From assembly GCA_025642075.2 (NCBI GenBank), contig JAODUO010001043.1:97976-161975 (forward strand): a stretch of DNA of 64,000 bases, in the 5' to 3' direction. Shown here in pieces: positions 5,001-39,300 of the stretch. Source of the stretch: Ridgeia piscesae. Taxonomy: Eukaryota; Annelida; Polychaeta; Sabellida; Siboglinidae. The translations under genes were made by a program, and so were the position numbers. The notes below the pieces were generated by a model, which was not told the origin of the DNA, did no database searches, and worked only from the letters and a program-made list of their open reading frames with translations. Every line of letters starts with the position of its first letter. Within the stretch, counting starts at the first letter, position 1.

Positions 5001-5050
5001 CTACTTGTTTGCCGGTTTTGTGGACTGGCTTCCCCTCCTAGTGGTTGTCA
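2050..5050 (-). mobile_element. Degenerate non-LTR retrotransposon (LINE, CR1/L2-like)
   Basis: A LINE of about 3 kb on the minus strand. The order is apurinic endonuclease (about 4920-4190), a connecting region, reverse transcriptase (about 3600-2500) and a short C-terminal domain. Endonuclease signs are the opening VVYVNARSIMNKLDEL, the ICITETWV block, the GDFNH block and an SDH block. Reverse transcriptase signs are a palm block with YLDFSKAFDRVPH, SGVPQ followed by a mutated residue and SVLGP, and the catalytic FADD. The end of the frame has NDWNRLP, typical of CR1/Jockey-type elements. The coding sequence is broken by several stops and frameshifts (near 4525, 4190, 3740, 3117 and 2505), so the copy is dead. 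Two near-identical copies of a TTCAAGGTAAAA motif at about 2060-2090 look like the short 3' terminal repeats of CR1/L2 elements. The clade is inferred from motif style only. Confidence 0.9.
2095..4986 (-). pseudogene. Broken LINE ORF2 (endonuclease-reverse transcriptase)
   Basis: Fragments of one original polyprotein lie in successive frames: endonuclease N-terminal part 4986-4528, endonuclease C-terminal part 4523-4191, a basic connector 4002-3739, reverse transcriptase fingers and palm 3599-3117, palm/thumb with FADD 3080-2508, and a C-terminal tail 2504 to about 2095. The breaks are stops and small indels, so no single frame survives. An in-frame stop also precedes the endonuclease near 5000. 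The first conserved G of the SGVPQGS block is R in this copy. Nothing suggests that the host uses the protein. Confidence 0.85.
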
Positions 5051-12358: not shown

Positions 12359-12399
12359 TTAATCCTGAACTGAACTGAACATCCTGAACATGTGGTTGT

Positions 12400-12610: not shown

Positions 12611-12746
12611 TTATGCGAACGCGAACACTTCGACGGCCTGAACGAAGAAATCTTCAGTGGTAGTCAGAAGGTCGTTGTCGTATGTGAGACAGTGCTGGGT
12701 GCGGCCGTGGTAAAGGTCACCATCCAGCCACAGGCCAAACAACCCC
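12611..12746 (-). CDS. OXR1: OXR1-like exon 15 (TLDc C-terminus and stop)
   Basis: The acceptor is ccacttgtag at 12747. The exon reads GLFGLWLDGDLYHGR and ends DFFVQAVEVFAFA before TAA, residues 993-1037. It matches the end of the TLDc fold, where the LW-D-DL-HGRS block and the terminal hydrophobic V-E-V/W-x-F strand are hallmarks. Vertebrate members usually end in FE; here the last residue is A. The entering phase is 2, fitting exon 14. Confidence 0.95.
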
Positions 12747-15700
12747 CTACAAGTGGACAGAACACCCCTCAATATTCTCTACTGCGTTAATGTGAAACAT
12801 TATCCAGAGTCATGAGTGATTTTCTGTTTTAGTAACACCAATTCTATAGCAGCAAAATACTGATATTTAGTTATGTGATGGTGATTAGATTAGAAACCAA
12901 ACACACACTATCGTGTCAGCGGCCGGTACACACTACACACTACACACACAGGGACCAAACTTTACACATCCAACACTTGGATGTGTAACCTTTGGCAAAC
13001 ACCAGTCCCCTGCATCAGCAGATACTTCCCACTTGGTGGCTAAACTAACTGTTGTGTCTTCAGTTGTGAAATTGTCATTTATGTTTATAACACAGCAGGT
13101 GGATGAATTTGCATAAAAGTTTGTATTTTGGCGATGTTCACCACAAATAGTTTTCATGACTTTAATCAGCCATAAGTCCACTAGTCACTAACAGATAACA
13201 GTGGGGGAGGTTTAAGACAAAATAGAAGTTTTAGATAAAACCTTGACAGTTTGCTGCATTAAATTAAGAGGAGGCAGATAATGTACATTTTATACACACA
13301 TTTAACGCTAACTCTGCTGTGGCTACATGTATCCATGGTAACCGTGGTTTACTCACTCTCCAGCTCCAAATGCCACACTCTCTGCATTTCCTTTTGTGAA
13401 GAAGTCATTCTCTCCCGTCCAATGAAATGTCTGAAACAACACGACCTCAGTGAAAGACCACGTAGTTGACACATTCACTAGGTGGCAGCACTGCACATTG
13501 CCCTTTTTTACTAACAACCCTTTTAGTCACCAGATGGCAGTATAATAGAGCTAGTGTCGTACTTAGCTATACAACTGTTATTTTTAAAATAATTAGTATT
13601 TAGTGGTTGATTGTAACAAATTTATATTTTTTTGAAGCTGTACTATTTTCACAGCAGCAGTAAATATGTCCTAATGGAAGATATAATCATTCATCCCCAG
13701 CCAGATTTAGGAATGTGTCGAGTTGCTTTTCCAACATCAGTACTCAGTCTCCTCAATCTCATCTTTGTGATCTTTTTAGGCAACTACTCGATAAATAAAC
13801 TACAATCTGCAGTATAAAATATGTTGCTATTTGCAGTTGAACTTTTCAGTTGCCAAACAAACCCAAACAAACCCAAACCAAGATTTTACCCACAGACATT
13901 ATTACATTCACCAATTTACTATTGTATTGTGATAAGTGCTAGATTATGCTGGTAGCAAGGTTTTAATAGTTAACCCTCCAAGTAAATAACATATTGTTGC
14001 CACATTCTGTAAATGTCTGACGACCAATAAAACAATTTGTAATTGTTGAATTTGTTTTACGAAATGACGTATTACCTTGAATTCTGGGTAGAACGTGAAG
14101 AGGAGTGATTCTCCGGTGCCGTAGAAGTATTCACTAATCCTCAACGCACACGACAGGTAAGCACCAAATATCTGCCAAGGAGAACAGATAATCTACATTT
14201 ATTAATAGCCTTGTATTATCATTATTTGCAATAATTATGTCATTGCAAAAAACTAAAACCATATCTTTGTAATATAATTTGTTAGAAACTTAAAAGAAAT
14301 TGGTATTACAATATAGTAATATTTTATAAAACATGTTTATCATAAAAAAGAAATGCACATGACATCTAACATTAAGAAAAGTATGTTTTACTACAATTTC
14401 ACCAGGACTCCGTGTAGATAGAGTTCCCCTTCTGTTAAACTCTTTAAACTACCCAAAATATATGGAAAGACATATTATGTTTGAACTGACTACCGGTAAG
14501 TTCCATATTGTGTCGTACAACAATAGTACATTTCTAACAAATTTACAAAAAATATCAGTTATATGGAAGAAACAAAATACTTGAACTATCAGCCTTCACC
14601 CTGTGACAAATACACCAACATAATTACACCGTTCTTAGGGCGAACCAGTTATAACGTTGACCTACATTGTGCTGCGTATCCTTGACAACCAGCAACATTG
14701 GGCAGTCAATGTGCTTCATAAAACGGTAAATCGTCTTCAGACTGAAGCCGTGCTTCTCCGTGCTGTAAACCATTCGCCATGGATACCCAACCGCGCGGGC
14801 TGGAAGATTTGCATTGATCTGTTGAATCAAAGATCTCACAGCTGAATGTGTATTCTGGGAGTCCTGTTCTATAATTTTCCATACATCTGCTTGAGACGTT
14901 TACAGACTACTGTGAACTCACATAATAGTAAATAAACATGATACAATTGCAGTAAACAAACCCATAAAACATTTAACATATGCATTTTAATCCACAAACA
15001 TTTGATTTATCAAATGCACAATCAAATTTGAATGAGAAGCATCGATTCATCTTCTCACTTCTTGGACTAATTATTATTGTTAATACAATATTTATTAAAC
15101 AATTTAATAATATGTGTTAAACAAAGTAATAATGTGCTTCTATATATTAAATGTTTCTCAAAATAAGGCAACACATTCAAAGTGAATAAAAATGCATTAA
15201 GAAAATATGTAACAACATTTACACATCATGTGGCCCTGAGAGACCGCACGGCGTGTGACTCTGAGAGACTACACAGCGTGTGGCCCTGAGAGACCGCACG
15301 GCGTGTGGCCGTGAGAGACCGCACGGCGTGTGGCCGTGAGAGACCGCACGGCGTGTGGCCCTGAGAGACCACACGGCGTGTGGCCCTGAGAGACCACACG
15401 GCGTGTGGCCCTGAGAGACCGCACGGCGTGTGGCTCTGAGAGACCGCACGGCGTGTGGCCGTGAGAGACCGCACGGCGTGTGGCCGTGAGAGACCGCACG
15501 GCGTGTGGCCCTGAGAGACCGCACGGCGTGTGGCCGTGAGAGACCGCACGGCGTGTGGCCCTGAGAGACCGCACGGCGTGTGGCCGTGAGAGACCGCACG
15601 GCGTGTGGCCGTGAGAGACCGCACGGCGTGTGGCCGTGAGAGACCGCACGGCGTGTGGCCGTGAGAGACCGCACGGCGTGTGGCCCTGAGAGACCGCACG

Positions 15701-17485
15701 GCGTGTGGCCGTGAGAGACCGCACGGCGTGTGGCCCTGAGAGACCGCACGGCGTGTGGCCCTGAGAGACCACACGGCGTGTGGCCCTGAGAGACCACACG
15801 GCGTGTGGCCCTGAGAGACCACACGGCGGTGCTGAGACCACACGGCGTGTGGCCCTGAGAGACCACACGGCGTGTGGCCCTGAGAGACCACACGGCGTGT
15901 GGCCCTGAGAGACCACACGGCGTGTGGCCCTGAGAGACCACACGGCGTGTGGCCCTGAGAGACCACACGGCGTGTGGCCCTGAGAGACCACACGGCGTGT
16001 GGCCCTGAGAGACCACACGGCGTGTGGCCCTGAGAGACCACACGGCGTGTGGCCCTGAGAGACCACACGGCGTGTGGCCCTGAGAGACCACACGGCGTGT
16101 GGCCCTGAGAGACCACACGGCGTGTGGCCCTGAGAGACCACACGGCGTGTGGCCCTGAGAGACCACACGGCGTGTGGCCCTGAGAGACCACACAGCGTGT
16201 GGCCCTGAGAGACCACACAGCGTGTGGCTCTGAGAGACCACACAGCGTGTGGCTCTGAGAGACCACACAGCGTGTGGCTCTGAGAGACCACACAGCGTGT
16301 GGCTCTGAGAGACCACACAGCGTGTGGCTCTGAGAGACCACACAGCGTGTGGCTCTGAGAGACCACACAGCGTGTGGCTCTGAGAGACCACACAGCGTGT
16401 GGCTCTGAGAGACCACACAGCGTGTGGCTCTGAGAGACCACACAGCGTGTGGCTCTGAGAGACCACACAGCGTGTGGCTCTGAGAGACCACACAGCATGT
16501 GACTCTGAGAGACCACACAGCGTGTGGCTCTGAGAGACCACACAGCGTGTGGCTCTGAGAGACTACACAGCATGTGGCTCTGAGAGACCACACAGCGTGT
16601 GGCTCTGAGAGACCACACAGCGTGTGGCTCTGAGAGACTACACAGCGTGGCTGAACCGTGACTGAGACACACCTTGCGGATGTGTGGTGTCTCCAGTATC
16701 TTGCTGTCCTCCGACAGCTCCGGCAGTGGGATGGCCTCCTCCTCCAGCAGCGACTGTCGTCTCTCCACCTCCTCCACCTTCATAATCTACAACCACACAG
16801 TGATAACAGTTGTGTCTGGGATCAGTCACAGGAAATAGGGAACACAAAATAAGGTTATTCAGACCCTGTCCAGTTTATACAAATGTTTCATCTTGCACAC
16901 ACGAGCACCTTAAAAAGCTTTTGAATCACAGACAAGTGACGCACTAGTCAGAAGTAAGGTAGCAAAATAACCTTACTGTGGCACAGATCGCCATAGTGTG
17001 CCCTTGCTACACAATCATGGCAATGATGACAGACTTAGCTGACAGCCAAGTTGAACTAAGATCTCTCTTTAACACCAGTACATTCACCAGGCGGCCCTGT
17101 CTTGTAGGCTGAGTGATGTTTGAACAACTCCCAAGGAGACCTATTTAACTTGGGGTACCTGGCTTGGACAAAAGGCTTGCTTATCTGAGCCAGACCTTCT
17201 CTAACACACAAAGGCAATTAGCAGGCTGGTGGTGCCCAGTTTTACTGCCCAGTACCCACAGGTGCTAATCTGTGTAAATATTACTAAACAAGGCCTGAAT
17301 GATCTCACATTGGCATTGCTGACTCTTAGCAGAAACTTTTCATTTCTTGATAACCATGTCTAATGTATTGATCATAATATTTGTTACACGATATTGGCTA
17401 ATATATTCATAAGTATTTAATAACAACATATAAACTATTCTTGAGGGATTCTAATACAGATTTCAGACTTAATACAGACTTAATG

Positions 17486-17546
<61 letters not shown>

Positions 17547-20500
17547 AATTTCCCAGTCTGGTAAAACTACAACAGCATACAGCAATTGAAGATCCTATGT
17601 GCTTTGGGCACCCCTTCCTTCCCTTCAGCTATTTTCTTTATCACTTTTACACTACCACTGAGGCACTGTCACAATAGCAGGCTTTAGCAGCTGCCATGTA
17701 ACATGGTTGGTTAGAAGGGAGCAAGCGGCATGAAAGCCAAGATCAAAAGACCACAGCAAAAGAGGCCTTTTGTTGCTAATTGCAACTGGTCCACCTTGGT
17801 CACAGGAGACAACTGACTACATGGTAGTGGATTTTAGCTTCTCTGGTATGCTCAATGTTGTCATGGTGAATGACTACAGTGACTTCCAACATAATTATTC
17901 CTATCTGACTTTAAAAAGGTGATTAATTGAATTTCAAGTAATTAACTGTGTAAAAAAGACAGGTGAATATAAAATATAACTAGCCATATTAATTCTCATA
18001 CCTAATTAAAAGTATTTTAATCAATAGAATAATGATTTGTTTTCAAATAAATTAAGTAAGATCAACAAGGATTAGTTATTTTTAATTATTCCATGTTAGC
18101 TATTCAATCTGTTATGGGCTATGGGTTGACTTTTGACAAATTACTGCGGGCGAGCTGTGGGGCGGGCTGCGGGCCAAGTTATTGCAGGGCGGGCTGATCT
18201 GTAATGTGCGGGGCGGGCTGATCTGTAATGTGCGGGGCGGACTGATCTGTAATGTGCGGGGCGGACTGATCTGTAATGTGCGGGGCGGACTGATCTGTAA
18301 TGTGCGGGGCGGGCTGATCTGTAATGTGCGGGGCGGACTGATCTGTAATGTGCGGGACGGGCTGATCTGTAATGTGCGGGGCGGACTGATCTGTAATGTG
18401 CGGGACGGGCTGATCTGTAATGTGCGGGACGGGCTGATCTGTAATGTGCGGGACGGGCTGATCTGTAATGTGCGGGACGGGCTGATCTGTAATGTGCGGG
18501 GCGGGCTGATCTGTAATGTGCGGGACGGGCTGATCTGTAATGTGCGGGGCGGACTGATCTGTAATGTGCGGGGCGGGCTGAGATTTCCAGCCCACAGGTC
18601 ACAGGTTGTCACCATGTACACGCATGACTGAGGAGGCAGATTCTGAATGATGGTGAATGTTCATTCTTGTGGTTTTTAGTGTTTCCCTCGTTCAACTAGT
18701 TTATTCTGATTTGCAACAAAACAGACATGGCTACTGACTGACTCATTCTTGACCTGTAACAAGACAAGGGACTTCACGTCCACATATTTCTGTCATACTG
18801 AGGCTGGTGTTCAACAACCCCTGTCTCACTGAGGCCAATGTTCAACAACCCCTGTCTCACTGAGGCTGGTGTTCAACAACCCGTCTCACTGAGGCCAGTG
18901 TTCAACAACCCCTGTCTCACTGAGGCTGGTGTTCAACAACCCCTGCCTCACTGATGCCAGTGTTCAACAACCCCTGTCTCACTGAGGCTGGTGTTCAACA
19001 ACACCTGTCTCACTGAGGCCAGTGTTCAACAACACCTGTTTCACTGAGGCCAGTTGTCAACAACACCTGTCTCACTGAGGCCGGTGTTCAACAACACCTG
19101 TCTCACTGAGGCCAGTGTTCAACAACACCTGTCTCACTGAGGCCAGTGTTCAACAACACCTGTCTCACTGAGGCCAGTGTTCAACAACACCTGTCTCACT
19201 GAGGCCAGTGTTCAACACATTTTCATTTAGTTTGCACTATGGTGCTTCACTAGTGTAATCTAGGGTTAAGGATTACACAAATAAAAATTGTAGTACATAA
19301 TAAAAAGTATACAAAACCGTACCGTAAACAAAATCAAAAAGATAGTAAAGCATTACACTGCGTATATAATGAAAGTAACTAGGGCCACACCTACAGCTGT
19401 ACATGAAAAGGTGTTTGTGAAATCTAATGAGATGCAAGTACTCCCACTGCAACATATCAGTGATAGCGAGAAAGTGGAAAAGTCACAAACAGGAGTTTTT
19501 CTGTAGTTCTGGTTGTCCCAGACACAGCACAGACCATGGAGAAATACCAGATGAAGTCAACCGTGAAGTCTCAAAACACCATCAAGATGTCATTGGTGCG
19601 ACCTAGTGACAACCTGGAACCAGGGGGGATGGGCAAAGCTGTGTTCTACTGGAGTCTGTGTTCTACTTCATGTAGACTACAATGCCTCACACACACATTG
19701 GGGAAGTGAAACATACCTTAGGAACCCGCATCAAAGCAGACAAAGACGCTGAGAAAGCTTCAACAAGCACCTACACCAGAGGCAACAGAACAACAGCGGA
19801 AGGAGATGCTTAATCAGTCGTCTCAGATCACAAATCAACAGTCACGTAGCAGACTGGGAGGGCCAAGTTTGTAGACAGAGTGAGACAGGAACAGAACTGA
19901 TATAAGGGCATTCTGAACAGGAACACCACAGACAAGACGACTGGAGACGAGAGTCAGCACCAACTGTCACCTACAACGACCTCCTGCAGAGCCACACACA
20001 CACACCAAGGATTGGCTCACTAGTGGCAGCACTGGGTAGACCGACTAGCGTCGCCATCTAGTGGTAGTTGTTTGGACAAGTTCAATGCCAGCGATCAAAA
20101 GATACAAGAAAACAGGCAAATTTACTGGGAAATCCGTAAAATAATGATAAGTCACACTTCATCCAACTCAATGTTGACAAAACATTTTCATCATCACTTT
20201 GTAATTTACAGGTAAAACATGAAAATGGCATGGTTTGTTCTACTTCTGAACCCCCAGTCGTTTGCTCTTTTCCAGAGCTTTATAATTATTTATCATAACA
20301 AATTACTGACGGATGTAATCTCAGTTAGTAATTTTCTGCACCAGACAGATCAAATCAGAAATTCTCGCTTTTGTATTGGTAAAATCAATACTATACATAA
20401 TATAATAACACATTATTCCAGTATTTCTCACCTCCCAGTCCTTTGTCATTTGTCTGGCAAGTTTTGGTCGTTTTGACTCCATGGCTTCCTCCAGTGTGGT

Positions 20501-23500
20501 CCCCGTCTCTCCCTCTTCCCCTCCTTCTCCCTCTCCCTCTCCTCCCTCCTCTGTGTCTTCAATGACCACAAACCCACGTTCCCTGCAGTCTATGTCTTCC
20601 TCATTGCCGTAGATGTTGGGAGACCACTGCACGAAGAATGCATACAGATGGTCCACTCTACAACACACATACAGAACACATACAGATGGTCCACTCTACA
20701 ACACACATACAGAACACATACAGATGGTCCACTCTACAACACACATACAGAACACATACAGATGGTCCACTCTACAACACACATACAGAACACATACAGA
20801 TGGTCCACTCTACAACACACATACAGAACACATACAGATGGTCCACTCTACAACACACATACAGAACGCATACAGATGGTCCACTCTACAACACACATAC
20901 AGAACGCATACAGATGGTCCACTCTACAACACACATACAGAACGCATACAGATGGTCCACTCTACAACACACATACAGAACGCATACAGATGGTCCACTC
21001 TACAACACACATACAGAACACATACAGATGGTCCACTCTACAACACACAAACAGAACACATACAGATGGTCCACTCTACAACACACATACAGAACACATA
21101 CAGATGGTCCACTCTACAACACACATACAGAACGCATACAGATGGTCCACTCTACAACACACATACAGAACGCATACAGATGGTCCACTCTACAACACAC
21201 ATACAGAACACATACAGATGGTCCACTCTACAACACACATACAGAACACATACAGATGGTCCACTCTACAACACACATACAGAACGCATACAGATGGTCC
21301 ACTCTACAACACACATACAGAACGCATACAGATGGTCAACTCTACAACACACATACAGAACGCATACAGATGGTCCACTCTACAACACACATACAGAACA
21401 CATACAGATGGTCCACTCTACAACACACATACAGAACACATACAGATGGTCCACTCTACAACACACATACAGAACACATACAGATGGTCCACTCTACAAC
21501 ACACATACAGAACGCATACAGATGGTCCACTCTACAACACACATACAGAACGCATACAGATGGTCCACTCTACAACACACATACAGAACACATACAGATG
21601 GTCCACTCTACAACACACATACAGAACACATACAGGTGGTCCACTCTACAACACACATACAGAACACATACAGATGGTCCACTCTACAACACACATACAG
21701 AACACATACAGATGGTCCACTCTACAACACCCATACAGAACGCATACAGATGGTCCACCCTACAACACACATACAGAACGCATACAGATGGTCCACTCTA
21801 CAACACACATACAGAACGCATACATATGGTCCACTCTACAACACACATACAGAACACATACAGATGGTCCACTCTACAACACACATACAGAACACATACA
21901 GACGGTCCACTCTACAACACACATACAGAACACATACAGATGGTCCACTCTACAACACCCATACAGAACACATACAGATGGTTCACTCTACAACACACAT
22001 ACAGAACGCATATAGCTGTTCCACTCTATAACACACATACAGAACACATACAGATGGTTCATTCTAACACACACATACAGAATGCATACAGATGGTCCAC
22101 TCTACAACACACACACAGAACGCATACAGATGGTCCACTCTACAACACACATACAGAACGCATACAGATAGTTCACTCTACAACACACATACAGAACGCA
22201 TACAGATGGTCCACTCTACAACACACATACATAACGCATACAGATGGCCCAGTCTACAACACACATACAGAACGCACACAGATGGTCCACTCTACAACAC
22301 ACATACAGAACGCATACAGATGGTCCACTCTACAACACACATACAGAACACATACAGATGGTCCACTCTACAACACACATACAGAACACATACAGATGGT
22401 CCACTCTACAACACACATACAGAACACATACAGATGGTCCACTCTACAACACACATACAGAACACATACAGATGGTCCACTCTACAACACCCATACAGAA
22501 CGCATACAGATGGTCCACCCTACAACACACATACAGAACGCATACAGATGGTCCACTCTACAACACACATACAGAACGCATACATATGGTCCACTCTACA
22601 ACACACATACAGAACACATACAGATGGTCCACTCTACAACACACATACAGAACACATACAGACGGTCCACTCTACAACACACATACAGAACACATACAGA
22701 TGGACCACTCTACAACACCCATACAGAACACATACAGATGGTCCACTCTACAATACACATACAGAACGCATACATATGGTTCACTCTACAACACACATAC
22801 AGAACGCATATAGCTGGTCCACTCTATAACACACATACAGAACACATACAGATGGTTCATTCTACAACACACATACAGAATGCATACAGATGGTCCACTC
22901 TACAACACACACACAGAACGCATACAGATGGTCCACTCTACAACACACATACAGAACGCATACAGATAGTTCACTCTACAACACACATACAGAACGCATA
23001 CAGATGGTCCACTCTACAACACACATACATAACGCATACAGATGGCCCAGTCTACAACACACATACAGAACGCACACAGATGGCCCACCCTACAACACAC
23101 ACAGAACGCATACAGATGGTCAACTCTACAACACACATACAGAACACATACAAATGGTCCACTCTACAACACACATACATAACAAATACAGATGGTACAC
23201 TCTACAACACACATACAGAACACATACAGATGGTCCACTCTACAACACACTTGCAGAAGGTCCACTCTACAGCACACATACAGAACACATACATATGGTC
23301 CACTCTACAACACAAATACAGAACACATACAGATGGTCCACTCTACAACACACATACAGAACACATACAGATGGTCACTCTACAACACACATACAGAACG
23401 CATACAGATGGTCCACTCTACAACACACATACAGAACGCATACAGATGGTCCACTCTACAACACACATACAGAACACATACATATGGTCACTCTACAACA

Positions 23501-26500
23501 CACTACAGAACCATACATGGTCCACTCTACAACACACATAGAACGCATACAGTGTCCACTCTACAACACACATACAGAACCATACAGATGGTCATCTACA
23601 ACACACTACAGAAATACATGGTCATCTACAACACACATAAGAACGCATACAATGGTCATTCTACAATACACATACAGAACGCATACATATGGTCTCATTC
23701 TACAACACACATACAGAACGCATACAGTGGTCCATCTACAACACACATAAGAACGCATACAGATGGTTCATCTCTACAACACACATACAGAACGCATACA
23801 GATGGTCATTCTACAACACACATACAGAACCATACAGATGGTCATCTACAACACACATACAGAACATACATATGGTCCATCTACAACACACATACAGAAC
23901 ACATACATATGTCCATTCTACAACACACATACAGAACGCATACAGATGGTCCACTCTACAACACACATACAGAACACATACAGATGGTCCACTCTACAAC
24001 ACACATACAGAACACATACAGATGGTCCACCTACAACACACATACAGAACACATACAGATGGTACTCTGGACGAGAACCAAGAACTTACTTATTCTAGGA
24101 TGAGAACCATAAACTTACTTTCTCTGGGGATGGAGAACCAAGAACTTTACTTATCTGGGATGGAAACAAAACTTACTTGACTCTGGGGATGGGGACCCAA
24201 GAACTTACTTGTCTCTGGGATGGAGAACCAAGAACTTACTTTCTCTGGGAACGGAAACCAAAACTTTACTTGTCTTTAGAGATAGAGAATAAAAAACATA
24301 ATTACTTCTGGAAGTTGAGAACCAAGAACTTACTTGTGTCTAGGATTGGAGAACCATAAACTTACTTGTCTCTGGGAATGGAGAACCATCAATTTACTTA
24401 TCTCTGGGAATGGACAAGCAAGAACTTACTTGTCTCTGGGGATGGAGAACCAAGAACTTACTTGTCTCTGGGGATGGAGAACCAAGAACTTACTTATCTC
24501 TGGGGATGGAAAACCATAAACTTATTTGTCTCTGGGGACGGAGACCCAAGAACTTACTTGTCTCTGGGGATGGAGAACCAAGAACTTACTTATCTCTGGG
24601 GACGGAGAACCAAGAACTTACTTATCTCTGGGGGCAGAGAACCAAGAACTTACTTATCTCTGGGGATGGAGAACCAAGAACTTACTTGTCTCTGGGGATG
24701 GAGAACCAAGAACTTACTTGTCTCTGGGGATGGAGAACCAAGAATTTACTTATCTATGGGGATGGAGAACCAAGAACTTACTTATCTCTGGGGATGGAGA
24801 CCCAAGAACTTACTTATCTCTGGGGATGGAGAACCAAGAACTTACTTATCTCTGGGGATGGAGAACCAAGAACTTACTTATCTCTGGGGATGGAGAACCA
24901 AGAACTTACTTATCTCTGGGGACTGAGAACCAAGAACTTACTTGTCTCTGGGGATGGAGAACCTAGAACTTACTTATCTCTGGGGATGGAGAACCAAGAA
25001 CTTACTTATCTCTGGGGATGGAGAACCAAGAACTTACTTATCTCTGGGGATGGAGAACCAAGAACTTACTTGTCTCTGGGGGCAGAGAACCAAGAACTTA
25101 CTTATCTCTGGGGATGGAGAACCAAGAACTTACTTGTCTCTGGGGATGGAGAACCAAGAACTTACTTATCTCTGGGGATGGAGATCCAAGAACTTACTTG
25201 TCTCTGAGGATAGAGAACCAAGAACTTACTTGTCTCTGGGGATGGAGAACCAAGATCTTACTTGTCTCTGGGGATGGAGAACCAAGAACTTACTTATCTC
25301 TGGGGATGGAGAACCAAGAACTTACTTATCTCTGGGGATGGAGAACCAAGAACTTACTTATCTCTGGGGATGGAGACCCAAGAACTTACTTATCTCTGGG
25401 GATGGAGAACCAAGAACTTACTTATCTCTGGGGATGGAGAACCAAGAACTTACTTATCTCTGGGGATAGAGAACCAAGAACTTACTTGTCTCTGGGGATG
25501 GAGAACCAAGAACTTACTTATCTCTGGGGATGGAGAACCAAGAACTTACTTGTCTCTGGGGATGGAGAACCAAGAACTTACTTATCTCTGGGGATGGAGA
25601 ACCAAGAACTTACTTATCTCTGGGGATGGAGAACCAAGAACTTACTTATCTCTGGGGATGGAGAACCAAGAACTTACTTGTCTCTGGGGATGGAGAACCA
25701 AGAACTTACTTGTCTCTGGGGATGGAGAACCAAGAACTTACTTATCTCTGGGGATGGAGAACCAAGAACTTACTTATCTCTGGGGATGGAGAACCAAGAA
25801 CTTACTTATCTCTGGGGATGGAGAACCAAGAACTTACTTATCTCTGGGGATGGAGAACCAAGAACTTACTTATCTCTGGGGATGGAGAACCAAGAACTTA
25901 CTTGTCTCTGGGGATGGAGAACCAAGAACTTACTTATCTCTGGGGATGGAGAACCAAGAACTTACTTATCTCTGGGGATGGAGAACCAAGAACTTACTTG
26001 TCTCTGGGGATGGAGAACCAAGAACTTACTTGTCTCTCGGGATGGAGAACCAAGAACTTACTTGTCTCTCGGGATGGAGAACCAAGAACTTACTTGTCTC
26101 TCGGGATGGAGAACCAGTACTCCGGCTTGTGTCTCTTGGTGTAGGACTCGATGGGACAGGTCTTGGAGACGGCCTTGTTGAGTGGCCGGCCAATCTTGAG
26201 ACACAGGTAGAGAGGAGGGTCCTCATACAGGGTCGCGGGCCGCGGGATCAACTCTGGACACACAACCAGCAACAGTACTGACACTGACACTGACACTGAC
26301 CCTGACACAGTGACATCATAGACAACATCCATAAACTTCACATCATGAAGAGATGGCGTTCACAGTTTATTTCATTTTAATGCTCACTCATTTTGTTCTT
26401 TTACAATGAGAATGAATGAGTGTCTGAAGTGGTAAAATCTATATTATCGTATAAATCATATTTACAAACATACAATTGTAAACAACTAATGTTAAAAATG

Positions 26501-29500
26501 TACATTCGTTTTGACACCAGCTGATTAAAGTAAATAGATATTTCTCAGACAGGTTAGAATGTATTACTATGTAAATGTTGCAAGCAAGATGTTGCACCTT
26601 TCAGGTTTAACTAAAGTCCGCACAGAACGACTACACCAACAAATTCAGTCCAGATGAGTTTGAATGTGATTACTAGTATTAGTTACATCATTTACATTTA
26701 TGTTTGTATACTGTTTTACGTTTCAATTATAATGTTACAGAGTATGTATACCATGTACAATCCAAACATGACTATAATGACTGACTATCCCCAATGCAGT
26801 GATAATGATAGTCTGTCACATTGAATACAGTTACATTGAATACACTGATACTGTTGCTGGCTGAAACGTAAGAACCTACAACGTACACACAGACTTACAC
26901 AGGACACTCCACACGTCATGTCCTAGTCTATAGTGCCATATGCACTGTCATGTGTCACCAAACACCACTGAGTCTGTCACCCAGAACACAATCAGACAGT
27001 GTCCAAGGTTGACAACTCACACAGTGACACAGTCACTCCAGTAACTGTGACTGTAGTCTACACAGGTGTCACCAGAACTATCTACTCATGTACTGAGGAC
27101 ACAGAGCAGACACAGCCAGCAACGCCTCCTGGCCCAGACAGACAAATTACTAATTGAGAAACATGACACCAGGTCACTGAAACGGAAAACCTGACTCGCA
27201 TAAACCACACTGTATTTATATAGGGCAACAAAATGTTACTTGCTGGAAGAAGAAAAGGCTTGTTGGACATTTAGTTTACTTACAACTCAGACACATATTG
27301 ATTAAGTTGCTTGGTACTACAGTGTTGGTAAAAATGTTTGCTTGGCCAGAAACTGGGTTTATGGAACATGTCTGAGCTCATTAATATCTTTGCAGAATGG
27401 CTTTTTCTGTATGCCCTATTGGGCCATGATTAAGTACGCTGAAATATTTCCATGGTTGAGATGGTACTATGAACTGACATTGACAATGTAGATAAAAATA
27501 GAGGAAATTTTTATAATATATTATAATACTTAACAATGATAGTTGTCACAGATCTTAATGTGTACAATCTAAATAATGACTGCATTATTTCACAACGATC
27601 TGTCAAATGACACCGGCATGCTTGAACAATTCACAAAAGGATTTGGTAACTTTTACAATTTACAAGACTGTGAACATTTTGTAATTACTATTATAAAAGG
27701 TCAAGTTCATAAATGTGATTACAAGCAATTAATAAAACCACACTGTCAACTGATGTAGAAGATGTTGCAACAAATGATTTTAAAACGGAACATCAAACTC
27801 ATGCTATATGACAAGGCCACACATTCAAAGCTATATACAGCAACTACAGAGACAGACCTACAGGAACAACAGCAGACAACAGCTGAGAACACCAAACAAT
27901 GACACTGGTGCACTATATACCCTGTATAATTTATAGTATTTCTTGCATTTCTAATAGTAATATTTCTTGAAATTAATCGTACATATTTCAGTTCATATTC
28001 TGAGAAACAGTGACAAAAACAGATGTCACATGATTTATAATTATTTGAAGCCACCATCCAGTGGATTTAACATGAGACCAACACAAACTGAGATAGTTAA
28101 TCAACGTCAGTGAAACATGAAAAGTACGACTCAAGTACACCAAGTGCGTTACACTGACATATCAGGTACACAGTGCCTAAGTAATGAATACATCTGCACA
28201 TTGTGTCAAGTGATTATCGTAAATCACCACAGCTACTCAAAGTACAGGCCTGTACATGTTCCGGTGCTGAAAGGTTACCTGACATGTGATTGTTTTCAAA
28301 CATATAGTTGACGTAAAACATAGACGTGTCACAACTGAGGTTCTAGTCACCCGCTGTAAGTGATATATATTTACAGACAGTGTTTTTAATCTGCCTGTTT
28401 AAAACTAATGAACATACAGAAAACTGCATGTTTCATTCTATATAGCACTGAATGTCACTGTTGAATTCATTAGTTTGATCTACGTGCAGTCAAAACATGG
28501 AAGTTTAGAAATAACCATACAGTGCAAAAATGAACAATGCAGAACAACAACAAAAACAGAAAGTAAACAGTAACAACACGGCCAGAAACTGGAGCAAGGT
28601 GAACTGGAAGTAACATTGGTATACTAACCCAGTGCTGAAATTAGGAAGAAAACACATAATTATTAATCAACATGTCTAATAAGTGGTTGCTAATCTGTGG
28701 GGTGGAAAGTAGTAATTGTGGGGGGGGTGCAACCTGGGAATGGTTTTTTTAATAAATAACTCTATATTAGGAACAGAAGATGTAGATTCAAACGTAACCT
28801 TTGTGTACAAAACACCACACAACCGCCAAGTCATGACCTCAGTGGAATATTAGTCAAAACATATTTGCTTCGCTCCAGTGAAGATACTGTATAAACCAAC
28901 CATTTAAATCCACAACAAATAATATGTCAACATGGATGGACGGAAGAATGGAAACCAAATAATGTGAGCAAACATAAATCTATACATATAAATGTCATAG
29001 TCATGTCATAAGTCATACCAAACATACCGTTAAACTATACATAACACATTTTGAATATTTTGCATGGTTGAAATTAACTGTCTTGGTAGAAAAAAAAACA
29101 TATTTAATTCTACACATACAGACATTCTTTTATGATTATTTAAAAATCAAATTACCCTATAACAGATATGTTACATATGCTTCAGCTTTTTCCAACTCAC
29201 ATGAAACATTTGTAAGAAATTTGAACTAAACGATTCTATCCAATTGTTTTAAATCCACATACAGTCAATAGGTGGCAGCACATGATCACCCACCAAATTG
29301 GAATGGATCCCAATTTATAATAATTTTACAACTTACAACCGATGAATTAATCAAATACAAAGATGAAATGAAAACAACTCTATTGAAAATACTAAATTAT
29401 ACAACACTAACATGAAAGGTTTTATAATTCAAATGTGATACAAATAAACAAAATGCAACAATATTCATTACTAGGTATAGCTATAAACTATAGGTATTCC

Positions 29501-32500
29501 CAAAAGGCTAAACATTTACAGACACATTCTGCACAACACCAAGACAAACGGTTAACTTCAGTAAATAGTCAGAGTCAAGTCTGTCCCTTTCCTAAAGCTT
29601 ATTAAATTCACTACATAGAATAAAGATGGATCAATCATATAATATTACAATGTACAGTACATACTGCATTAGCGTTATAATGTATACTGCATTAGCGCTA
29701 TCATTTGTTCAGCTATTTATAATATTTATTACTTAAGGTGTGCATGTGGCTGTTAGTGTTTTGCATACAAATTGTGAAATAGATGGACACATCTTGAGAA
29801 CTTGATGTTGTAGTTGCTCTACCTTTTGAGACAAGGACATAAACTGCCTTGGTTACATTGGGAACTGGTTCATAATGGATGATGTATAAAAGACAGAGAT
29901 GAAGAGAGACCTAAGAACAAGAAACAGGGAAATGTGCTTTCTAATCACCAGCCAGACATCTACAGTGAGCCCAGACACGGCTGTACACAACACTAGGCCC
30001 ATTTACTTGAATTCAACACTTTATGATGACAATGAGTATTTACGTTCTGAACCTGTCAATACAGAATTTTTAAGTGAAATTGTATCTGTCAACCTATGTA
30101 CAAATAATATTAACTAAAACCTTTCTATTATGACAATTACACGTGGTCATAATAGGAGTGTGTATGCTGACAACATGTATACTGTACACTATAAAAGACA
30201 TCTCCTGTCATTCACAAGAGCTGTATTCCTCTACCAACCCTGCAATAGTGCACATGGCCAGTGTGCCCATTTGAAGCACTTTCTCACTGCCAAGGTAACA
30301 CACAGGCAGGCATTGTTAAATATATATATGGGTTCAGTGTACAATATACTATGATGACTGATCATACATGTTGCCATTTAGAATAGTTTGCATTTAGAAT
30401 AGATGTAAAAGAATATTTTCTGTATTTATAACCACCCTTAATGAAGGTGGATAGAGAAATACCTTGAGTTAAGCGGACATTCAAACATTCTCTTAGTTTG
30501 TTCTGTGAAGACATCACAAATAATTTCATCAGATCAACAAGAAAAAAAGCAATTTTCATTACATGGGTCGGCCAGCAGATGTCTGCTTTTGATTGAGCTT
30601 GGATTATGTAGAGCTGCAGATAAATGATGCATTTCCCTTAACATGGTGTAATATGTTCCAGGGTTGGCTTCTTGTAATTAAGCCTGTCTGATAATTTGAA
30701 ACACTGATGTTATTGTGAAAGCACTACACGGTGTCAAACGTTCAGCAATGCTGAACTTTACATGGAATACAGCACTGTGAATGACAGGGGGCTGGGGAGA
30801 GATCTTTGTTGCAGGGAGGGAGGGAGGGAGGGAGAAGGTGATGAGAGAGTTGTGGCATCTGTTGAGATAGAGAGGTGGTAAAGAGGCTGGAGAAAGGGAT
30901 GGGAGTTCAGTGTATTTAGAAATCAACTCACCATCAAGAGACCTAAACAAGTCGGGTTTATCGGCCAATCGGACGGCGTTCCTAACTCGAACGTCCATCG
31001 AATCGTGCCTGGGTCCTGTGGCTGTTGACGCTGCCTCATATACAGGGCCCGGGCTGGCGACAGTGTCCTCACTCAGCTCTCCTGCGAGGTCCTTCACTGG
31101 TCCCCGGTACTCCTGGTTCTTTGCAAACAGCCCGCTGGAGAAATCTACGAAGATGTTGAAATTTGGTGACAATGAACTGAAGGATGAGAAGGACCCAAGG
31201 GTGCGACTGAGGATGGAGCCACTGCCGTGAGAGTCGACTGAACCAACCGTCTCCGAATCATGTCTGGCCGTGTCCTTGCTCTCTGGGTTTGTGGTTGGAA
31301 TGGCGAATGTGACGTCATCGAACTGGAAATACTGAATGTTCCCAATCTGTAGGTTTGGAGTGCCGACGACAACATTGTCTGGTGAACCATTGTTGCCAAT
31401 GGCAACAGGACTTGCTTCGGACAATGGCTGACTGTTGGAGGTCATGACCTCTTCTGTTTCACTAACCTTGGCTTGGTCTTCGGCTTGTCCTGTAATCACT
31501 GCAGCACCAGTGCCATCTGGTGGTGCTTCATGCATATTGGAGTCGGCTTTATTGACATTGTCTACAGGAATGATATGACTTTCACCCTCACACTCGACGA
31601 CTCCACCCTTTGTGACTTCACCCTTTGTGACTTCACCCTTTGTGACTTCACCCTTTGTGACTTCACCCTCTCCCTCTAAAAGCAAATCACAATTACCTGG
31701 TTTTGAAGCTGCACTTCTATCGCTGTCCTGAACACATTCCAATCTGCTTCCCTGACTGTCCCCTGCCTCTCCAACCGCAGTAGTTTCACTTTCACTATGC
31801 ACACCGGCTGGGGTGATTTCCGCTTCAACGTTTGCTGATATAGTTTCGGCGGGCGTAACTTTATCGTCCGGACGCGTGTCGTCAATCAAGATGTCAGCGA
31901 ACACGTCTGGCAATTCCTCGTCATCACATGGGGGCGCCACTGCAGCATCCTCGAGCGCAGCATCACATGAGCAGCCACTGTCCCTGCGGTCAGATTTGTC
32001 CTGGAGCCCCCGTAAGTCATTGGATGTCTCCTTGGAATTCTCTGCATCCGGAGCACTCATTTCTGTCACAGCACTGTCACCAGATGGCGCTACAGGATGG
32101 CAGCCTTTCATGTGGTAGACTTCGGGGCGGGGTGTGTTGGGTGCTTGATCAGTGCTGTGGGACAATCAAAGCAATACGGATGTGGTTGATGCACAAAACA
32201 CATTGTTAATAACCAACCACATTTACAACACAGTGAGGCATCCGACAATCAATGTAGCCAGTGTAACAGTCCCGCCATCTTTACTAACATGTCACATCCA
32301 CAAATATGACCACATAACACTAGTCAGTAAGTCACAATACTGATGGCAATACGTTCTTTTACAAATATATACCATTAACACTCTAGTAAAAGATAAGTAA
32401 AATTTCCTATAAACCTGTTACAAATATATAATATTAACACTCTAATAAACGATAAGTAAAATGTCCTATAAATAGACAGTTATAATGAATATAATGTAAA

Positions 32501-33302
32501 CTCAGAGGATCATTTAATTAGCATTATGAGTTCATAAGCCCCCGACACTTGAAACATGAGCTGGACACACCCAACCGTGAAACAATAGCTGACGACAGCC
32601 ACACCCAGGACAAAGTAACTACGTCATTCTGTGTGGTACAGTGGTGCCAACTAGTGGACAGGTGTGAAAACACACTAGAAGTAGTTGATTATCTTAGTGA
32701 AACAATTCTGATTCTTCAGATGTGTATCTTGTTGTGAGACTAGGCTACTAGACAGTAGTGACTTGTTCATTCTGACAGTCCAAATTGTCTCAATCATCTC
32801 AACTCTATGTCAACTGATCTCAAGACATCAATATACAAATGCAAAATATAACCAGTCTCCTCAGAGGTGTCTGTTTGTAATTTTGTTCCTCTTTGGTGTT
32901 AATTACCCCCAAAATCTGTTTATTTTCCAATCATTATTCACTAACCCTAAAATCTGTTTATTTTCTAATCACAATTCATAACGGTGAATATTTCGAATAT
33001 AATAAGACTTTTTTAAATAGTCTTACATAAGTTGTACTAAGTTATTTATGTTGTACTTAAGTTATTCTACAGACTCCATCACTCAGATGCGACAGAGCAA
33101 CTAACTCACAAGATCTGTCAACTCTAAGAGGTCTGTCACCACTAGCAGACAGAGGAATCACGAGTGGATTCACAAGATTTAAGGATGGGTCTTATTTCTG
33201 TGCTGGACATTATAGGTGTTGGGTTGATTTTCAGTGTTCAGAGCTGTGCCAATAATTATTTTTCTGTTAGGAAGATTTATGTTGTGGCATGGGCCACACA
33301 CA

Positions 33303-33350
<48 letters not shown>

Positions 33351-36300
33351 CACAAACACACAAACACACAAACACAGGAGTTATAGGTGGGTCAAATCAT
33401 AGTTCCCACTCCACTTGATGTATCAGATAATGACTGCTGCCTAAATATGTTAATTTGGCACACCTTGAAGCACCTTTCAGTCGCATTGCAGCAATGTCGT
33501 GGTACATTGCTGCACTGATGACAGTCTCCATGGGTGCGATCATCCCGTACGCGTCCGCCCCGTGCTCTATCACCAGAGTGTCAGACACATTCGGGTCAAA
33601 CATGATCGCATTTGGGGTGACCAACAGAACCCCACTGACAACACCCTGAAAACCACATATATCATAAGTAACATGATATAAAAGTGTGCAGTCTTTGCCT
33701 GAATTATATATGAGATGAACAGAACCAATGATTTTGAGGGGCCAAGTGAGTAGGACAGTTTATTACCAAGTAACATTAGAAATGCACAAGGAATATTTTG
33801 CATTGTGGTGTTAACATATATTCAGTACGTACATACACATTTTCATACATCCATCGTGCACCCAACATTATAAAACTAAACTATGCAAGATGTAAATTTA
33901 GCAGCCAGGTAGAAAGACGGACTATGTTAGATGCATGAAACTGTTTGTCTGAACACAGCACCTCAGTCATCATTGGTGAAATAATAATGCAAAACAATCT
34001 GTTGACCATTCACATAAGCCAAGCGTAACCCTATTTCTCACGGTGGCTATCATCCACAATGTTGCTTAACAGGTATTTGGTAGTTTTAGAACAATGGGAT
34101 AAGACTACAGCTATCTTCTTCCATCTCTGGCTGTCAATGATGTGTTAGAAGGCTGTTCACTCACCTGGCCGTCAGTTATGTGTTAGAGAGAAGGCTGTTC
34201 ACTCACCTGGCCGTCAGTTATGTGTTAGAGGGAAGGCTGTTCACTCACCTGGCCGTCAGTGACGTGTCAGAGAGAAGGCTGTTCACTCACCTGACCGTCA
34301 GTTATGTGTTAGAGGGAAGGCTGTTCACTCACCTGGCCGTCAGTTATGTGTTAGAGGGAAGGCTGTTCACTCACCTGGCCGTCAGTGACGTGTTAGAGAG
34401 AAGGCTGTTCACTCACCTGGCCGTCAGTGACGTGTTAGAGGGAAGGCTGTTCACTCACCTGGCCGTCAGTGACGTGTTAGAGGGAAGGCTGTTCACTCAC
34501 CTGGCCGTCAGTTATGTGTTAGAGGGAAGGCTGTTCACTCACCTGGCCGTCAGTTATGTGTTAGAGGGAAGGCTGTTCACTCACCTGGCCGTCAGTTATG
34601 TGTTAGAGAGAAGGCTGTTCACTCACCTGGCCGTCAGTGACGTGTAAGAGGGAAGACTGTTCACTCACCTGGCCGTCAGTGACATGTTAGAGGGAAGGCT
34701 GTTCACTCACCTGGCCGTCAGTGACGTGTTAGAGGGAAGGCTGTTCACTCACCTGGCCGTCAGTTATGTGTTAGAGGGAAGGCTGTTCACTCACCTGGCC
34801 GTCAGTTATGTGTTAGAGGGAAGGCTGTTCACTCACCTGGCCGTCAGTTATGTGTTAGAGGGAAGGCTGTTCACTCACCTGGCCGTCAGTTATGTGTTAG
34901 AGAGAAGGCTGTTCACTCACCTGGCCGTCAGTGACGTGTAAGAGGGAAGACTGTTCACTCACCTGGCCGTCAGTGACATGTTAGAGAGAAGGCTGTTCAC
35001 TCACCTGGCCGTCAGTGACGTGTTAGAGGGAAGGCTGTTCACTCACCTGGCCGTCTGTGACGTGTTAGAGGGAAGGCTGTTCACTCACCTGGCCGTCTGT
35101 GACGTGTTAGAGGGAGGCTGTTCACTCAACTGGCCGTCTGTGACGTGTTAGAGGGAAGGCTGTTCACTCACCTGGCCGTCTGTGACGTGTTAGAGGGAAG
35201 GCTGTTCACTCACCTGGCCGTCAGTTATGTGTTAGAGGGAGGCTGTTCACTCAACTGGCCGTCAGTGACGTGTTAGAGAGAAGGCTGTTCACTTACCTGG
35301 CCGTCAGTGACGTGTTAGAGGGAAGGCTGTTCACTCACCTGGCCGTCAGTGACGTGTTAGAGAGAAGGCTGTTCACTCACCTGGCCGTCAGTGACGTGTT
35401 AGAGAGAAGGCTGTTCACTCACCTGGCCGTCAGTGACGTGTCAGAGAGAAGGCTGTTCACTCACCTGGCCGTCAGTGACGTGTTAGAGAGAAGGCTGTTC
35501 ACTCACCTGGCCGTCAGTGACGTGTTAGAGGGAAGGCTGTTCACTCACCTGGCCGTCAGTGACGTGTCAGAGAGAAGGCTGTTCACTCACCTGGCCGTCA
35601 GTGACGTGTCAGAGAGAAGGCTGTTCACTCACCTGGCCGTCAGTGACGTGTCAGAGGGAAGGCTGTTCACTCACCTGGCCGTCAATGACGTGTCCGAGGG
35701 AAGGCTGTTCACCCATCTGGCCGTCAGTGACGTGTTAGAGGGAAGGCTGTTCACTCACCTGGCCGTCAGTGACGTGTTAGAGAGAAGGCTGTTCACTCAC
35801 CTGGCCGTCAGTGACGTGTCAGAGAGAAGGCTGTTCACTCACCTGGCCGTCAGTGACGTGTCAGAGAGAAGGCTGTTCACTCACCTGGCCGTCAGTGACG
35901 TGTTAGAGAGAAGGCTGTTCACTCACCTGGCCGTCAGTGACGTGTTAGAGAGAAGGCTGTTCACTCACCTGGCCGTCAGTTATGTGTTAGAGAGAAGGCT
36001 GTTCACTCACCTGGCCATCAGTGACGTGTTAGAGGGAAGGCTGTTCACTCACCTGGCCGTCAGTGACGTGTCAGAGAGAAGGCTGTTCACTCACCTGGCC
36101 GTCAGTGACGTGTTAGAGAGAAGGCTGTTCACTCACCTGGCCGTCAGTGACGTGTTAGAGAGAAGGCTGTTCACTCACCTGGCCGTCAGTTATGTGTTAG
36201 AGGGAAGGCTGTTCACTCACCTGGCCGTCAGTGACGTGTTAGAGAGAAGGCTGTTCACTCACCTGGCCGTCAGTGACGTGTTAGAGAGAAGGCTGTTCAC

Positions 36301-39300
36301 TCACCTGGCCGTCAGTTATGTGTTAGAGAGAAGGCTGTTCACTCACCTGGCCGTCAGTTATGTGCTTCACGTTGACTTTGATGAACCTCTCATAACATTC
36401 CTCATCCAATCGTTTCACCTCCTCCTCACTGAGTGGGTGGGGTGGGTCCACGGGGAGGGGGGGTCCATCCTGCCTCTCAGCATGTCCAGGCAGCTTCATG
36501 GGGCTACGCACTGGTGAGCCCTGAAACACACCATTCTTTAGCAAACACCCAACACTAGACAACCCCTTGGAATAAACTCCACTCAGAATCCCAGTTCATT
36601 TGTTTGTCCTTAGAGGAGCCATTATTATTTACAAAGGGTATGCATGGGGTAATTTGAAATCCACCCCCAGTGACCTACCCTCCACAGTATGCAATGAATA
36701 TTTTGTTTGTATTTTGAAATACCTTATTGTTGGCTGTCTATGCACTGACAACTAACCCAACCACAAATCTTCAGCAAATCTTGTGGTCGTAAATCTGACC
36801 TTAACCCTAATCCTCCCCAATGAAAGATGACCCCTCTAATAGCCAGGCCTGTGCACAATGCTACCTGCTGATGATCTGAACAATATCTAGTCACAGCTCA
36901 AATATAAACTATCTTCAGATGTTGCAGAGATTTGTTTGCACAACAGTACATACTAAGTCCACGGACTCTCTGACAGGGTGGTGAGGTTATTGCACCAAGA
37001 ATAAAGGACACTTTATGGAAGAGTGAAGCCAGGATCCTGTTAATGAACCATTACATCACTGCTGGGTGATGTCACTGCAGGACCAACAGACACAGACTGT
37101 GCAGAATGTCCAATTATCACTACACACCCACTGAGTGGCAATGTAAATTCTGTGACGAATTGGCACAGATGTTGCAAACAAGCAGTACAATCAATATAGG
37201 AAAATCAATTTAAATGAAATCATATTTGTTGACATAATCCATATTGCACTGAATTATATTACGAAAGAACACAATTTATACATTTACATAAATGCAGAGC
37301 AGTAGACATCTATGACACATATTACTATAATATACATACATACGATATGATACAAGATAATTAGATGAACATTATAATTTTCTGGTTGACCTTAGTAACA
37401 TCAATGAGAGACTAGAATTAACACAGACAGTTTGGTAGACATCATTAGATTTATAGTTCAAAATCATACCAATACAATCATCAAACAACAAAACAGCTCT
37501 CTAATGATGGAGATGATTTACTTACAACTAGGAAGGTGGGAGACGAGGGTGGGTCCGAGGGTGGGAATGTCTGGCTTGTTGTGGTGACTGGGCTGGTTGG
37601 TGCACTCACAACATAGTCCTTGTCAGGCACATAGAGCATCTGTAACAGGACAACAGGGGTCATGTCAGGCACATAGAGCACCTGTAACAGGACAACAGGG
37701 GTCATGTCCGGCACATAGAGCACCTGTAACAGGACAACAGGAGTCATGTCAGGCACATAGAGCACCTGTAACAGGACAACAGGAGTCATGTCCGGCACAT
37801 AGAGCACCTGCAACAGGACAACAGGAGTCATGTCAGGCATTTAGAGCATCTGTAACAATTCAACAGGGGTCATGACCAACAGGAGTCGTGTCAGGCACTT
37901 AGAACATATGTATCAGGACAAAGAGAGTCATGTCAGACCCTGGAGCATGTGTAAGAAGACAACAGGAGAGTCACCCAGGAGACACCTGCATGAACATGTA
38001 GATGTTGGCTTAACAAGTCAAGCATAATAATTGTTAACAGCTTTATGACAAATTAAATATTAAACTGTTGAGAAAGGACAACTACAAAGTGGTATTGAAT
38101 AAAAGTCCAATATACTAACTACTAGATTAGAAAAAAATTGATACCAATGGAATAATCAATAATGTTTACGTTTAGTTGGTGCTCTACCCAAATAAATTGA
38201 TGACGGGATAGAACTGGTGTGATGTTATGAACCTGCCCTCAGACAGTGAATCAGGAGGCTGTGTTTATCACCATTGAAGCCCTGTCAGGTGGGCAAATAA
38301 CTTCTTCACAACTGGCCACAAAGTCACAGAAAACACACCATTTACAACTGTAGTGAATACAGCATCAGTCGTCTTTGACGGCACATATACAGTTCTCATG
38401 ATTAATGATATAGTTGTTATGATGACATTGGGACATTTCTATTTCATGACAAATATAATCTTTAGAAAAAATCATCAAACCAAGCATAGATCATTGTTTT
38501 AAATATTAATAAACACTGAATAATGATGCCAAAACATCCACCGAATTATTTAGCACATAGCATTGTTTAAAACGAGGGTTACTGGTTCTCTATCCGCAAT
38601 TATCAACCATTATAACTGATAAAGGAAGTCTGCGATATTGCCAATAAAACATATTTTGAAGCTGGATGTATGGTTTACCATTTGATCAAGCTCCAGGTGT
38701 GATATTTGTCAAATTGTGCACATTATTACAGGCTTAGTGAAGTAACTAGACACAAATTAGACACTATACCATCAACATTATATCATAGGCTTGAATTCAA
38801 TTCACTTTAATGTCCTTAAAAAGGATATTCATCATGCAAATCATGATCACATCTAAAATACATGCACCGGGGTATGTAAAAATAGATCATCACAAAATAT
38901 AAATGAAATGCAAAATGTAACCACACAAAAAGCAAACCCGTTGGCATCTTCAGAATATAACATGAATTATTGAATGAGACACAAGAAATGGCTTGCTTGC
39001 TTTTAATCCCCATCTGTACTAGCTATGATCATATAATCCTTGGTCGTCTCCGAGTTCACACACATTTCCCTGATGAGTATTTTGGTGGAGACGTTCGTCA
39101 GATTGACGTACACTACAATTGTCAATATAACCAAGATGTTGTACCTGGCCAGGAAAAATCATCTGTGACATCAGCTTGTTCAGTTTCATCAATTCAGACG
39201 TTGTTGTGTCAAACTTTGCTGCGATGCTGGCCAGCGTGTCACTGCTGGACACCTGCAAAACAAGGATTTGGAACATTGGGAAATACATATCTGAAAATGG

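Follow-up and report, generated by a model that had tools for sequence, protein, structure and literature searches.

How can an intron be spliced correctly when it consists of little other than copies of its own two splice junctions? The question is raised by a 64,000-nucleotide stretch of the annelid Ridgeia piscesae (contig JAODUO010001043.1, positions 97,976 to 161,975; hereafter the window, meaning the whole stretch of DNA that was analysed), in which intron 10 of an OXR1/NCOA7-like gene is composed of one tandem array of the donor junction and one of the acceptor junction. In amphioxus, tandem repeats across a 5' or 3' exon-intron boundary, with copies that carry splice signals, are termed mirages in the accessible parts of the published accounts (PMC3087553, PMC3902484). 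Intron 10 is probably a two-ended mirage, in which duplications of both junctions grew by a minisatellite process, the core of the intron was lost and correct splicing was maintained by exon definition.

Anatomy and splicing of intron 10

As established by direct reading, Tandem Repeats Finder and segmentation, the 5,436 bp of the intron (26093-20658, minus strand) comprise a donor-junction array and an acceptor-junction array with 9 bp between them (Table 1), the unique sequence being gone. The 32-bp donor unit, TGGTTCTCCATCCC(C/G)AGAGA(T/C)AA followed across the junction by GTAAGTTCT, contains the last 23 nt of exon 9 and is repeated in full 64 times, with a fragment besides; the first copy belongs to exon 9, which leaves 63 in the intron, and GTAAGT is present in 57 copies. 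The 38-bp acceptor unit, AGTGGACCATCTGTATG(T/C)GTTCTGTATGTGTGTTGTAG, consists of 15 nt of intron end (GTATGTGTGTTGTAG) and the first 23 nt of exon 10 and is present as 92 copies, the last (partial) one inside exon 10; 87 of them end in TTGTAG. Chance is not the explanation of this match between arrays and junctions. The preliminary description of the locus had claimed an intron with almost no unique sequence, about 63 intronic donor copies, about 23 nt of exon copied on both sides and arrays that begin at the true splice sites, and each of these features was recovered. Its estimate of about 90 acceptor copies of 38 bp was likewise sound, but the tgttgtag that it took for the whole non-exonic part falls short of the actual 15 nt; furthermore, the copies are amplified junctions, as described, but they are not identical, there being 28 distinct sequences among 65 donor copies and 44 among 92 acceptor copies.

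Donor copies 1-3 carry the exon variant CCCGAG and 50 of the 65 copies carry CCCCAG; relative to the exon 9 frame (W F S I P R D K), the majority of the donor array differs at CCG/CCC and GAC/GAT, both synonymous. Uniformity is highest beside the exon and decay is greatest where the arrays meet (rho -0.51, p 2e-5; rho +0.52, p 1e-7). In the acceptor array three rare variants recur at a spacing of exactly 798 bp (21 units), which indicates block duplication and thus that expansion probably also occurred in large steps. A search of the host genome, which passes over very common words, placed 29 of 29 matches of the donor unit and 41 of 43 matches of the acceptor unit at the OXR1/NCOA7-like locus, the remaining two being weak and on contig C186; with that exception the units are locus-specific, which argues against a dispersed satellite.

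Protein-guided splicing with OXR1/NCOA7 proteins, several of which come from one species and are hence not independent, placed the donor at 26093 and the first exon base at 20657 exactly in 37 of 59 cases. Scored with weight matrices built from 133 dynein introns of the same genome, the true donor reached 9.99 (median of real donors 8.20) and the true acceptor 9.79 (median of real acceptors 8.32). Competing with them are donors to a total of 57 that lie no more than 2 units from the true donor score, and 92 acceptors as judged by motif; the scores of 25 donors and 78 acceptors lie no further than 0.5 from those of the true sites, and the local context is identical in 23 donors (over 9 nt) and 55 acceptors (over 23 nt), the true ones included. 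The right pair cannot be selected from local sequence alone. When the frame was followed to an exon 10 end set 10 nt short of its donor, the outermost of the 5,244 donor-acceptor pairings alone kept it open and a stop was met in all 5,243 others, each of the 56 alternative donors and 91 alternative acceptors leading to one. With a single open pairing, intron 10 represents an extreme natural experiment on the long-standing question of how the spliceosome chooses among identical sites.

A cryptic acceptor, situated 6 nt upstream of the donor, additionally occurs 38 times in the donor array; its score of 4.8 exceeds the 10th percentile of real acceptors (4.2). Its context arises because CCC replaces CCG in the CCCCAG majority; the exon version, CCCGAG, is without it.

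Junction arrays in dynein genes

The frequency of such arrays was assessed in four dynein heavy-chain regions, C799 (DNAH10), C1191, C216 and C92, which were picked from one Pfam search and amount to 250 kb including 17.5 kb of N. Exons were mapped with 16 and then with 45 DNAH10-type proteins, and arrays within gene bodies were counted if they had a period of at least 15 and at least four copies. Such arrays numbered 42 (14, 12, 16 and 0 in the order given) and made up 17, 22 and 43% of bases in the three regions that contain them. Nine of the 42 span a junction (four donor, five acceptor) among about 188 introns, as estimated from exon counts; automatic mapping had missed some of them because arrays disturb it, and these were added by reading flanks and alignments, a step that possibly favoured their discovery. 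Two further junction arrays lie in the OXR1/NCOA7-like gene itself (Table 1). Unit length in these other 11 junction arrays ranges from 31 to 73 bp. Two acceptor arrays of C216 (sense index 34503-36161 and 42376-45552) have units of 66 and 73 bp in which as much as 61 and 42 nt, respectively, is dynein exon, so that more exon can be copied than was copied in intron 10. Three candidates in C216 were rejected: idx 12952 and 30289 are near a junction and do not span it, and idx 38841 has an acceptor-like unit, but no adjoining exon was seen.

These counts bear on the strongest alternative, according to which mutation is targeted to splice junctions: some process tied to transcription or splicing, such as nicks at junctions, paused polymerase or R-loops, would duplicate junction DNA more readily than the rest of the intron. 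The nine junction-spanning arrays exceed the 3.6 expected under uniform seeding (Poisson P = 0.011; the OXR1/NCOA7-like gene was excluded from the seeding tests), and dynein junction arrays are longer than others (9 versus 26 arrays of at least six copies, one-sided P = 0.018). However, the excess shrinks to seven arrays versus 3.26 (P = 0.048) if at least 8 exonic nt are required, and to six (P = 0.11) once C216 idx 20074, the exon of which is unsupported by score, is left out. A junction hotspot is accordingly not demonstrated, since arrays are enriched there only some 2- to 2.5-fold and the enrichment hinges on borderline cases. Moreover, a profile over 108 introns, which took in OXR1 and an earlier 40-kb version of C216, revealed no junction peak, the repeated share of 20-mers being 2-4% at junctions and 9-19% some 100-250 nt inside the intron; this profile is biased against such a peak, because its exon mapping caught three of the eight dynein junction arrays then known. 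We therefore regard a mutational target at junctions as unlikely. The abundance of junction arrays seems mostly to reflect the abundance of minisatellites, any excess at junctions being modest at best. If arrays arise independently at 4/188 and 5/188, both ends would be affected in about 1 in 1,770 introns, so that a two-ended intron is rare and special coupling is unnecessary to account for it. What is unusual in intron 10 is that nothing else of the intron is left.

Table 1. Position of the arrays, exons and splice sites in the window, and of the borderline dynein arrays
Feature	Position	Strand	Remarks
Host gene, visible part, OXR1/NCOA7-like	12614..39252	-	LysM-like exon to TLDc exons
Exon 9	26094..26253	-	Coding, in frame with exon 10; start approximate; ends in CCGAGAGACAA
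True donor GT	26092..26093	-	First of 57 donor copies; protein-guided splicing
Donor-junction array	26116-24073	-	32 bp per unit: exon 9 end (23 nt) + GTAAGTTCT
Fusion of donor and acceptor arrays	24064-24072	-	9 bp; AGAG common to both units
Acceptor-junction array	24063-20641	-	38 bp per unit: intron end (15 nt) + exon 10 start (23 nt)
True acceptor AG	20658..20659	-	Last of 92 acceptor copies; protein-guided splicing
Exon 10	20432..20657	-	Begins with VDHLYAFFVQWSPNIYG; best high-scoring segment pair (HSP) 65% identity to P0005
Second junction array, acceptor	37621..37874	-	42 bp x 6; TGTTACAG then, across the junction, GTGCTCTATGTGCCTGACA; junction by eye, exon HSP
Third junction array, donor	34147..36358	-	42 bp x 53; CACATAACTGACGGCCAG then, across the junction, GTGAGTGAACAGCC; Tandem Repeats Finder, protein-guided splicing
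Borderline junction array	C1191 idx 31948		7 exonic nt
Borderline junction array	C216 idx 2759		About 5 exonic nt by eye, 2 by entered junction
Borderline junction array	C216 idx 20074		Short exon scores 30 versus shuffled maximum 39

Origin of the intron

Starting from what is directly established, namely the anatomy, the homology-based positions of the splice sites, the poor local discrimination among many copies and the loss of frame in other pairs, the following course of events may be proposed. Each junction would have undergone tandem duplication as a short segment, with about 23 exonic nt and 9 or 15 intronic nt, and the copies would then have multiplied within the intron through minisatellite expansion, a process that in this annelid is very active. 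A duplication across a junction would be nearly neutral, because the outermost copy retains the complete exon and a working splice site. Because what the units share with the exons is conserved coding sequence, the direction of copying was most likely from gene to intron. The unique core of the intron would later have been deleted, thereby joining the arrays, and the AGAG at the fusion is compatible with a microhomology deletion. For the gene to function, the first donor and the last acceptor must presumably be spliced, and exon definition may select both, because they are the nearest sites across the complete exons 9 and 10 and the inner copies hold only 23 nt of exon; RNA spliced otherwise would be expected to decay. 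A preference for the sites closest across the exon is described for large introns in the accessible text of one study (PMC9225289).

Several observations weigh against this proposal or narrow it. At the exonic GCA site, intronic acceptor copies read GCG (synonymous) in 37 cases, GTG (Ala to Val) in 41 and GCA in two, so that divergence there is not purely synonymous. That the outermost pair is used is itself predicted from protein homology only. Of the 57 donors, the remaining 32 fall short of the true donor by as much as 2 units (the commonest variant 8.1 versus 9.99), and local strength may thus help in part to guide the choice. By eye, no clear branch-site consensus was seen in the 38-bp acceptor unit. 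The C92 dynein region (C92:616001-666000; 50 kb, of which 5 kb is N) contains no array even at a period of at least 10 and at least three copies, and its 45 kb of known bases indicate that minisatellite expansion is uneven along the genome. Similarly, growth from the exon edge was rejected as a general rule, being seen in eight of 13 junction arrays (Wilcoxon P = 0.24), and at C1191 idx 38000 and 45361 the uniformity gradient is significantly reversed.

The arrays might alternatively be kept by selection as a buffer or regulator of splicing, a mis-splice between inner sites leaving the outer pair available for re-splicing. The order of the sites, with donors first and acceptors last, suits such nested re-splicing, which in a toy model with random choices lifts the success of splicing from 0.02% to 15.6%; however, errors that involve one outer site are beyond repair, and the other 11 junction arrays are each at one intron end, where there is little to gain, so that selection for buffering appears very improbable. 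More improbable still is an assembly artefact, in which the arrays were collapsed or invented by the assembler: array length is known from the assembly sequence alone and errors in it are possible, but the many variant copies, the decay gradient and the variants 21 units apart are not assembler-like, and the 11 further junction arrays (three of them borderline) occur in four of the five surveyed regions.

If intron 10 is a two-ended mirage that arose in these steps, junction arrays offer a route by which an intron may lengthen or give way to new sequence while the gene stays functional, and gene predictors and repeat maskers may misread introns that are built in this way. A wider reading, which we hold only tentatively and judge slightly easier to doubt than to accept, is that introns in this annelid lineage are being rebuilt out of the sequence at their two ends. 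Dozens of junction copies would take the place of the former intron, possibly with its polypyrimidine tract and branch site, and splicing would remain accurate, with site choice resting on the complete exon body alone; this would presumably have happened independently of amphioxus. Were it true, about a hundred two-ended introns would be expected with independent ends and an assumed 150,000-200,000 introns, and they would constitute a natural titration series for exon definition.

Known systems and the host gene

The amphioxus examples, as far as the accessible parts of the sources describe them, comprise Adh3, the globins BflGb6 and BflGb9, troponin C and PGBD5, with units of 10-72 bp in Adh3 and about 150-160 bp in globin; copies number 3 and 6 in two haplotypes of BflGb6 and 2-7 in PGBD5, a model of intron gain was put forward for them and the results suggest undisturbed splicing (PMC3087553, PMC3902484). 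The resemblance to mirages noted in the preliminary description holds: the unit of intron 10 likewise unites exon end, splice site and intron end (23 exonic nt with donor or acceptor), it spans the 5' or 3' boundary (both in intron 10, one in each of two cases elsewhere in the gene) and its 32 and 38 bp agree with published unit lengths. Intron 10 differs from the mirages so described in its copy numbers (63 and about 91), and in that both ends of one intron are amplified and the core is gone; its host, by mitochondrial gene order, is an annelid rather than a cephalochordate, the historical host of mirages. The earlier verdict of 'exceptional' is therefore apt for a two-ended intron without unique core, but not for junction arrays as such, as two more occur in the same gene and six to nine of the 42 dynein arrays span a junction.

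Other systems share single features with intron 10, within what the accessible text of each source conveys. In human segmental duplications, internal tandem repeats occur where exon meets intron, with an average of about four units of 30 bp, and these boundary minisatellites alter splicing and can form novel introns, with 27 intron modifications recorded (PMC2812944); unlike them, intron 10 is made wholly of two junction arrays. In the Rogers model, introns are gained via tandem duplication of AG/GT-bearing segments (cited in PMC3087553). There, as here, tandem duplication of exon sequence and splice signals yields new intron sequence, but in intron 10 it is an existing junction that was amplified. 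In the dual-specific array of the polyubiquitin gene UBC, AGGT sites serve as both donor and acceptor and give variable isoforms (PMC10809524). Tandem copies of splice sites compete inside one gene in both cases; in intron 10, however, each kind of site has an array to itself and a single pairing stays open. Introners also spread splice sites by amplification, and occur scattered over many loci. No such scatter was found for the units of intron 10, which are locus-specific but for the two weak C186 matches. In the open-access literature, judged mostly by titles and the beginnings of abstracts, no report of junction-spanning arrays outside chordates was found; the kind is already known, and annelids are a new phylum for it as far as that literature shows, which suggests that junction minisatellites are not peculiar to chordates.

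The assignment to annelids draws on a mitochondrial contig (C3158) that carries cox3, cob, atp6, nad5, nad4L and nad4 in that order, and nad3, nad2, cox1 and cox2 in that order, on one strand. The position of atp6 between cob and nad5, of nad5 before nad4L and nad4, and of nad3 between nad1 and nad2 is seemingly confined to annelids and their kin, according to the accessible part of the source (PMC2639372). In a Pfam check nad3 was below the cut-off, the one family that nad2 matched also takes in nad4 and nad5, and the frame taken as nad6 by its position had no match; nad1 and the ribosomal RNAs were not located. The best protein matches of cox1 had 74-76% identity, in a search whose length limits shut out full-length proteins. 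A long AT repeat lies between atp6 and nad5 and the cox1 frame is broken; assembly errors or a nuclear copy are possible.

The host gene runs from a LysM-like exon (39252-39145) through conserved middle exons to TLDc exons that extend down to 12614, and all eight matches of an Owenia protein in the host assembly fall at this locus, a single copy of the gene having been found. In a search that covered proteins of 0.55-1.75 times the query length, and among the matches listed (the best 120 of 573), the best relatives of its product came from bivalves (56-60% identity) and the annelid Owenia (56%); named vertebrates reached 38-48%. No near-identical protein stood among the 120 matches listed for this query or for the dynein query. 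Across intron 10 the joined exons read ...EYWFSIPRD-K-VDHLYAFF..., the best HSP of exon 9 having 89% identity to P0005; the peptide of exons 9 and 10 had no match in Pfam, and the donor of exon 10 was located by eye as GTGAGA at 20431. Arrays occupy 31% of bases in the window. More minisatellites, in which no splice junction was seen, lie in or just after the host gene at 15229-16649, 18183-18581, 18790-19217 and 9505-12359; the first of these begins about 25 nt inside an intron and, being near the junction without spanning it, was not counted. Additionally, fragments resembling the reverse transcriptase and endonuclease of a long interspersed nuclear element (LINE) were recognised by eye from open frames at about 2100-5040 of the window, on the minus strand.

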